From assembly GCA_032622095.1 (NCBI GenBank), contig CP136064.1:126221605-126285604 (forward strand): 64,000 bases of DNA, in the 5' to 3' direction. The DNA is from Siphonodentalium dalli. Its lineage: Eukaryota; Mollusca; Scaphopoda; Gadilida; Siphonodentaliidae. Below are positions 51,812-53,176 of this stretch, one piece after another. The translations under genes were made by a program, and so were the position numbers. Numbering within the stretch: the stretch's first letter is position 1; each line of letters begins with the position of its first letter. The notes under the pieces were generated by a model. That model had not been told where the DNA came from and did no database searches. It was given only the letters and a program-made list of their open reading frames with translations.

Positions 51812-51947
51812 TTACACGGCTTGTTGATGGGGGATACGGTGTGGTATGCCCCGGTAGATGCTCGTATCCCCCGATGCGATAGCCGAGGGGGATACGATAT
51901 TCGACCGGGGCATACCACACCGTATCCCCCATCAACAAGCCGTGTAA
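51812..51947. repeat. Perfect 44 bp inverted repeat with a nested stem
   Basis: Arms 51812-51855 and 51904-51947 are exact reverse complements over all 44 bases (TTACACGGCTTGTTGATGGG and onward). The 48-base loop holds a further perfect stem, TCGTATCCCCC (51862-51872) with GGGGGATACGA (51887-51897), whose sequence resembles part of the outer arm. GGGATACGGCGTGGTATGGC, close to the arm, recurs at 53225, and GGGGCATAC is also in the 87 bp satellite, so these palindromes and satellites share ancestry or a common element. Confidence 0.95.
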
Positions 51948-52285
51948 TGTATTTATCCCCGGTCAAAATTAACAAGATATTCCCACAGACATAAAGCGCG
52001 GAAACGAGCAACGAACAGTAACTCTATTTGATTAGACTGCTCATACGATGAATATATTTATATAGCTGTTTCCACAATTTGTCCATAAATACTTGCTGGC
52101 CTCGCTTACTTTTGGAATCTATATGTTAGAAGATATAAAAGAGAGCAATACACTTCAAAAATAGTAATGGTAAATGAGTCAGACAACGTAAATAAATGAA
52201 GCAAGATAACATCACACCAGGAATCAACGTGGCTTTGAAAGATGTACATTAGACCTTCAAACTTTTGCCAGGTCATAAAAATTCT

Positions 52286-53176
52286 ACTAGGGGGCATACG
52301 AGATTGTTATGACCTTGTAAAAATCTGTCTTCTCTAGATCATACGCTATTTCGCTATTGCGAAATGGGTGATCGTTGCTTCTCGGCCTTTTGGCTAAGAT
52401 CAAAGTGTAGTATCTGTTCCGCGCTGGCCGTGAGCAGGGTCGCTATGCTTTGATCGAGCCCTTACGGTGTGATACGTCCCCCACAGGTGGTTCTTCCCAC
52501 ACGAAGGGACTTCCACTGTTTGGGTTCGCAGCCTGGGGCCGACAAGCGGACCTGACTGACTGACGGACTTCCGCTGCAAAGCGGGGACTGACCCCGAATG
52601 GCAATTTGACCATCTCGTAAGGGTGGGTCACCTCTTTCGGGGTGCTCCAGCCGATATGAGTGGTCCGCAATAGCCCCGAGTTTAAAAAAAAAAAAATCTG
52701 TCTTCTCTATATAGCGACGACAATTTTTGCGGAGTAATATCACTTTTACACGGGGCATACGAGATTGTTATGACCCGTGTAAAATCTGTCTTCTCTATAT
52801 AGCGACGACAATATTTGCGGGGTAATATCAGTTTTACACGGGGCATACGAGATTGTTACGACCTTGTTAAATCTGTCTTCTCTATATAGCGACGACAATT
52901 TTTGCGGGGTAATATCAGTTTTACACGGGGCATACGAGATTGTTATGACCTTGTAAAATCTGTCTTCTCTATATAGCGGCGACAATTTTTGCGGGGTAAT
53001 ATAAGTTTTACACGGGGCATACGAGATTGTTATGACCTTGTAAAATCTGTCTTCTCTATATAGCGACGACAATTTTTGCGGGGTAATATCACTTTTACAC
53101 GGGGCATACGAGATTGTTATGACCCGTGTAAAATCTGTCTTCTCTATATGGCGACGACAATTTTTGCGGGGTAATA
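52286..53176. repeat. 87 bp satellite, split by a SINE insertion
   Basis: TCTGTCTTCTCTATATAGCG starts at 52697, 52785, 52872, 52959, 53046 and 53134, a step of 87-88 bases. A partial unit (GGGGCATACGAGATTGTTAT and on) lies at 52291-52335, left of the SINE. In some units the arms TTTTACACGGG and CCCGTGTAAAA form an 11 bp perfect hairpin; in others one arm has decayed to ACCTTGTAAAA. The minus frame at 52746-53072 is the translated array. Confidence 0.9.
52336..52696 (+). mobile_element. SINE with U2 snRNA head and poly(A) tail
   Basis: 361 bp inserted into an 87 bp satellite unit. A 17 bp direct repeat, AAAAATCTGTCTTCTCT, flanks it at 52319-52335 and 52692-52708 (overlapping the A-run), and a run of 13 A ends it at 52684-52696. 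After a 35-base leader with a small hairpin (ATTTCGC TATT GCGAAAT), 52371-52419 follows U2 snRNA from its 5' end: GCTTCTCGGCCTTTTGGCTA, then AGATCAAAGTGTAGTATCTG. The branch-point-pairing GTAGTA is at 52407-52412. The next part is unlike U2 except GTGATACGTCCC at 52469, which matches the stem II region. The U2 Sm site is absent. A body of about 200 bp of unknown origin follows, ending in GCAATAGCCCCGAGTTT before the A-run. Known snRNA-headed SINEs (SINEU class) are a family precedent; this body I do not recognise. Confidence 0.8.

Follow-up and report, generated by a model that had tools for sequence, protein, structure and literature searches.

A U2 snRNA-headed SINE family in the scaphopod Siphonodentalium dalli and the probable origin of its head among LINEs inserted in snRNA genes

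The SINEU elements of crocodilians, which Kojima is said to have described in 2015, are reportedly short A-tailed or LINE-mobilised elements with a head derived from U1 or U2 snRNA; they are also said to insert preferentially into another repeat and to be linked to LINEs of the Tx1 clade. SINEU is listed as a class name in PMC5753468. According to PMC4640811, Utopia (NeSL clade) inserts into U2, forms tandem copies in the U2 genes of Nasonia and reaches off-target U2-like sites, and Keno inserts in U2 at the same site as Utopia. For squamate satellites derived from SINEs, PMC10702118 considers that further copies may have inserted at one and the same locus. Here, we describe a U2-headed SINE family from Siphonodentalium dalli, together with LINEs found inside snRNA genes of the same genome. 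U2-headed LINEs were not recognised in a partial literature search.

The element lies in an 87-bp host satellite within the window, the whole stretch of 64,000 nucleotides that was analysed. Its parts are as follows.

52319-52336, plus strand: left target site duplication, AAAAATCTGTCTTCTCTA, 18 bp, identical to 52692-52709, in the host satellite
52337, plus strand: lone extra G between the target duplication and the leader, absent from the target; HR copies have C
52338-52376, plus strand: leader stem-loop that matches the separate repeat HR, as read at reference locus L034, in 39 of 39 bases
52377-52419, plus strand: U2 snRNA-derived head, 43 of 43 bases identical to host U2 nt 4-46
52420-52683, plus strand: SINE body and 3' part by sequence reading
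52470-52481, plus strand: 12-base U2 word TGATACGTCCCC within the body, matching host U2 nt 63-74, from the region of stem-loop II, at every base
52684-52696, plus strand: A13 tail, read directly
52692-52709, plus strand: right target site duplication, its first As overlapping the A13 tail

A preliminary description had reported the 5' end of U2 fused to an unknown body, with an A13 tail and a duplication of the host satellite. This architecture holds, with the 5' boundary displaced by one base. The duplication, given there as 17 bp, reads as 18 bp, or as 17 bp if the first A is assigned to the flank. The "about 49 bases" of U2 do come from its 5' part, and the identical bases number 43. The body, called unknown there, contains the TGATACGTCCCC word, which was equalled in 5 of 3000 dinucleotide shuffles, and may conceivably carry further U2 ancestry. 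The U2 family (RF00004) is the sole Rfam match at gathering threshold across the window (52374-52463, 49.8 bits for a threshold of 46, E = 6.7e-07), and its alignment to the SINE backs only about the first 46 model positions. Elsewhere in the window, at 51817-51945, a long inverted repeat surrounds CGGCTTGTTGATGGGGGATACGG, probably a hairpin-type mobile element or a satellite unit.

The family was searched for in one assembly of 2.23 Gb in 9 contigs. The SINE query matched at least 132 places, with 40 of 805 candidates scored; these collapse to 37 sites at a gap of 1500 bp, 26 of which hold two or more matched places, the second place being only a leader or U2 head fragment in 4 of the 26 by our own reading. 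A 23-base degenerate pattern of the SINE tail gave 421 exact matches, some of them in local repeats, and none in the control. Twelve tail matches fall within 1 kb at C2:18914559-18915442, several of them spaced by 33 bases, and form a tail-derived minisatellite. The 44-base U2 head was matched exactly 132 times (a count that includes U2 genes), with a control of 0. By best match, 84 units from the fetched loci were assigned to three subfamilies: A, which includes the window copy, B and S. The window SINE differs by 0.3% from a unit of locus L015, which indicates recent activity. The window element is thus a SINE: it is short, non-coding and A-tailed, with many copies and variable target duplications. 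That a family with a U2 head, an A tail and variable duplications exists, as the preliminary description had proposed, is borne out by many loci, each with its own target duplication. Most of these duplications start with A runs; endonucleases of the LINE-1 type favour A runs. A preference of the SINE for U2-like targets was considered and set aside: the window duplication vaguely resembles U2 (ATCTGTTCTTATC), but the others are, by eye, mostly not U2-like.

The head is of host type. Of 46 scored U2 matches, 29 score at least 184 bits, and 25 of these 29 lie in an array of 920-bp spacing on C5. The extra A of ATCAAAGTGTAG is common to the SINE and the four host U2 genes read (five loci fetched), and the SINE head is therefore taken to be host-derived. 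U2 is also left after nt 46 by the B-type copy L043 and by copies L041 and L044. A pattern search (up to 2 mismatches, one SINE type, with the U2 array partly in an assembly gap at C5:203.289-203.294 Mb) found a U2 promoter-side flank in 0 of 8 SINE places; a G preceded ATCGC at 7 of the 8 SINE starts, a share that is no more than a hint as the ATCGC start pattern favours some flanks. Other elements also carry parts of U2. Two U2-headed elements (L035:803 at C9:108.738 Mb, and L057) keep the stem-loop II core CTGATACGTCCCCACAGGGGACTTCG, with altered flanking stems that look compensatory. Another repeat family (L042, L048, L049, L052, L054, L056, L058 and L059) shares an upstream stretch, the U2 5' end and a U2-like stem-loop; there, U2 sequence sits inside a different mobile repeat.

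The leader folds well in the window copy (-18.1 kcal/mol, z = -5.3, 0 of 200 shuffles as good). A leader with its own hairpin upstream of U2 had been noted in the preliminary description; the observation stands, but the leader is shared with the separate repeat HR. At loci L033 and L034 it occurs inside HR with no SINE. Since HR holds the leader at 39 of 39 bases and occurs without the SINE, the leader is most likely a 5' transduction, a transduced flank and not part of the U2-derived head. HR sequence continues beyond the leader in 23 of the 72 SINE loci compared, a share biased by the many loci that were fetched with a leader query. Outside HR, leader-bearing copies share one start point, each directly after its own target duplication, clearly so in the window copy, L022, L025, L028 and L094, and also in L001 and L002, where the G is ambiguous. 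Such a common start is what a transcript that begins in HR and runs into the SINE would produce.

A lone G stands between the duplication and the first A at ten junctions, five of leader type (the window copy, L022, L025, L028 and L094) and five of U2 type (L043, L050, the first unit of L051, L095 and L097). At this position, U2 genes have T and HR copies have C. A G copied from the cap is known from LINE-1 work, and we infer that the extra G was copied from an mRNA-type cap, which would explain both types of 5' end. Four resolved junctions speak against a lone G, namely L024 with five additional bases, L030 with TG, and both L047 and the second L051 unit without any extra G. Junctions L001, L002, L018 and L020, in which the flank also has a G, are ambiguous and were left out of the count. 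The extra G is absent at the U1-headed ectopic LINE described below.

LINEs and gag-like elements have inserted into U2, U1, U4 and U5 genes, as seen in the few copies that were read. Inside a U2 gene of the 920-bp array, L061 holds a 1.9 kb element that begins behind U2 nt 53 and ends in an A tail, after which U2 resumes at nt 37, giving a duplication of 17-18 bp. It carries an ORF of the same 381-aa type as its ectopic relative L005 (76% identity), a U2-headed element also of 1.9 kb, whose ORF has a zinc-knuckle-like motif by eye and no match in Pfam. The junction of U2 nt 1-53 with ATTCTTTGACAGCC is identical in the two, one inside a U2 gene and the other outside. At L067, a U2 gene is interrupted after nt 51 by a LINE that brings a U2 head of its own, ending at nt 48; the 3' part of this LINE falls within 5000 N. 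The LINE of L070, whose two ORFs are open over 335 and 1155 codons, follows a U2-gene-like promoter-side flank and U2 nt 1-51. U2 heads are also found next to other snRNA sequences: L068 (open frames of 355 and 1155) has a head to nt 39 and U1 on its 3' side, and L069, with one stop in ORF2, has a diverged head and U4 on its 3' side. At L071/L072, a LINE is preceded by U1 nt 1-28 and followed by U1 sequence. This U1-LINE junction occurs seven times, six of them at C4:20.64-20.88 Mb (one read), and the seventh is ectopic at C1:103.88 Mb, with an unrelated flank in front. In L064 and L078, A-run ends are followed by U5, which was identified by visual comparison with the L041 copy of the U5 gene, since Rfam did not list it.

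Several further arrangements were seen around these genes. A U5-like stretch (46.6 bits) precedes a LINE ORF in L063 and L066 (C1:9.43 Mb), its U5 loop sitting on a stem rebuilt into an extended hairpin without mismatches, and a U5-like head precedes a LINE ORF in L077 (C3:85.11 Mb). At L041 (C3:85.11-85.18 Mb), a 3.9 kb tandem unit holds the U5 gene and a U2-headed SINE, with LINEs flanking. The U1 gene region at L068 and C4:20.63-20.91 Mb is dense in LINE copies, with at least three ORF2 identity groups.

The ORF2 tested has human LINE-1 ORF2p as its best PDB match (E = 2.4e-75), with R2 at 1e-20. Two ORF2s contain an AP-type endonuclease (Exo_endo_phos) and a reverse transcriptase (RVT_1) domain; a restriction-like endonuclease was not found in either, the C-terminal part of one being in an assembly gap. 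U2 heads end at nt 48-53 in several LINE-type elements, which is the zone of entry into U2 genes, and the SINE head ends at nt 46. The LINE partner that the preliminary description had hoped to trace by its 3' tail was not found among these LINE-1-like elements: the SINE body and 3' part show no excess similarity to four LINE or gag-element 3' ends (99, 143, 159 and 37 of 200 shuffles as good) or to three 5' ends (96, 159 and 157 of 200). The same comparison gave 8 of 200 for X1 and 1 of 200 for U2 from nt 47 onward. L053, a candidate SINE-LINE fusion, was discarded, as its ORF2 fragment belongs by eye to a different kind of LINE.

We favour, with a probability of about 0.72, the reading that the window element is a recent copy of a U2-headed, A-tailed SINE whose head was acquired by co-transcription from snRNA genes via a LINE lineage, and whose leader was added later from HR. 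A LINE-1-like lineage would insert a short way downstream of the 5' ends of snRNA genes. The snRNA promoter would then drive a capped RNA starting at the snRNA start site, and reverse transcription of that RNA elsewhere would carry the snRNA 5' end along as a lasting head. Most likely, the SINE ancestor obtained its head in the same way or from such a LINE-type element; passage of the SINE through the same route, and thus once through a U2 gene, is proposed because its head ends in the LINE-type zone. A later SINE copy within HR would have been read from a start inside HR, yielding the leader-bearing form, and the window SINE would have been copied by target-primed reverse transcription. Its RNA would be capped. 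The LINEs of this genome presumably move the SINE, to judge from the A tails, the similar lengths of the duplications and the shared head, although the 3' ends differ. Counting against the favoured reading, besides these 3' ends, are the lack of a U2 promoter-side flank at the 8 SINE places searched, the mostly non-U2-like target duplications of the SINE, the four junctions that depart from a lone G and the missing G at the ectopic U1-headed LINE.

Other origins of the head were weighed against this reading. The preliminary description had named a single genomic copy as the mark of a one-off chimeric retropseudogene belonging to no family, which the at least 132 matched places, the 421 tail matches against none in the control and the many loci with their own duplications make almost certainly wrong. 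A conventional SINE headed by tRNA, 5S or 7SL, into which a U2 fragment was inserted afterwards, is very improbable. A B-box-like word, GGGTTCGCAGCC, can be picked out in the body by eye against the consensus, but a search of 52300-52720 at E up to 1 gave no Rfam family other than U2, 52200-52800 yielded no tRNA gene, and the head contains TTTT, normally a terminator of Pol III transcription. Template switching, in which the reverse transcriptase jumped from SINE RNA to free U2 snRNA and the chimera founded the SINE, is the more serious alternative, though still unlikely. Copying to the end of U2 RNA would fit the 5' ends at U2 nt 1, and chimeras of U1-U6 are known in mammals (PMC13174262). 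The well-described U6 chimeras of that text, however, have a full-length snRNA part, whereas the heads here stop at nt 46-53, the very zone where U2-gene insertions enter. Moreover, one element has the same junction in and out of a U2 gene, with a matching case in U1.

Many copies are arranged in tandem, separated by the target duplication. In L015, TGATATCT is found at all five borders of four units, and units are separated by their duplication also in L018, L019, L020, L051, L007 and L009. The subfamilies follow each other as S, B, A in L007, as B, A, B, B, B in L018 and as A, B, S with three different 5' cuts in L019; in both L019 and L020, differently 5'-truncated units lie behind one duplication. 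The same pattern is seen in L065 at a U2 site, with two different elements and U2 nt 32-53 between them. In our reading, the mixture of subfamilies behind one shared target duplication fits repeated insertion at a single site, some arrays having been amplified locally afterwards. That a single initial insertion gave rise to the arrays purely through unequal crossing-over and subsequent gene conversion retains some chance but is improbable. In its favour, L009/L010 (C3:68.476-68.488 Mb) looks locally amplified, the four L015 units are all cut at the same U2 base despite belonging to two subfamilies, and the mean distance over all pairs is smaller between array-mates (0.057 for 154 pairs, of which L009 supplies 105) than between loci (0.131 for 3320 pairs), the related arrays L019 and L020 both being kept in these statistics. 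However, the within-array mean rises to 0.107 (49 pairs) without L009, and for 42 of the 57 units in 15 multi-unit loci the closest unit lies at a different locus and not within the same array. The mixture of subfamilies in L007 and of truncations in L019 and L020, as well as the unlike elements of L065, also count against it. L041, a duplicated satellite, counts in turn against repeated insertion. L062 was set aside as an array, ATCATTCG between its gag element and the next SINE being a shortened leader end and not a duplication. SINE arrays separated by target duplications were not recognised in a partial literature search.

Repeated insertion and head acquisition through snRNA genes may be parts of one process. 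We suggest tentatively, at somewhat less than even odds, that snRNA genes serve as rented promoters for a radiation of LINEs, in which lineages specialised on U1, U2, U4 and U5 would keep the 5' heads, carry them between snRNA gene types, as when a U2 head ends up in a U1 or U4 gene, and lend them to SINEs copied from capped Pol II rather than Pol III RNA; repeated cutting of one site would produce mixed arrays spaced by the target duplication. A single genome here holds both the suspected donor and the product, with LINEs in snRNA genes, snRNA-headed LINEs elsewhere and SINEs headed likewise. It thus bears on where the snRNA heads of SINEs originate and suggests how such elements get them. 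The genome also lends itself as a natural test case for two questions: whether capped transcripts can sustain a SINE, and whether insertions can recur at a single site.

Among known systems, Utopia shares insertion into U2 genes, but it has a restriction-like endonuclease, in contrast to the AP-type endonuclease of the LINEs described here. With their L1-group reverse transcriptase and AP endonuclease, the latter resemble Keno and the Tx1 clade, to which they may belong. Keno and Tx1-clade LINEs likewise combine these two enzymes with insertion into U2 genes. Here, in addition, U1, U4 and U5 genes are entered and LINE 5' ends bear snRNA heads. The U2 sequence behind the L061 element starts again at host nt 37, which is 36 in standard numbering owing to the one extra A of the host, and not at 39. 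The LINE-1/snRNA chimeras of mammals (PMC13174262) also have snRNA at the LINE 5' end in the same orientation; those are single events, mostly with full-length U6, whereas the heads found here are heritable and break off within U2 or U1, where the insertion zone lies. The squamate satellites derived from SINEs (PMC10702118) share the head-to-tail arrangement. In the present arrays, by contrast, it is the target duplication that lies between units, and these vary in subfamily and in where they are truncated.

The closest known kind, to judge from its reported features, is SINEU of crocodilians, with which this family shares a head from U1 or U2 snRNA on a short element. The present family differs in its animal host, in its HR-derived leader and in its heterogeneous arrays sharing one target duplication; it differs further in that the same genome contains snRNA-headed LINEs inside snRNA genes, the likely donor of the head.
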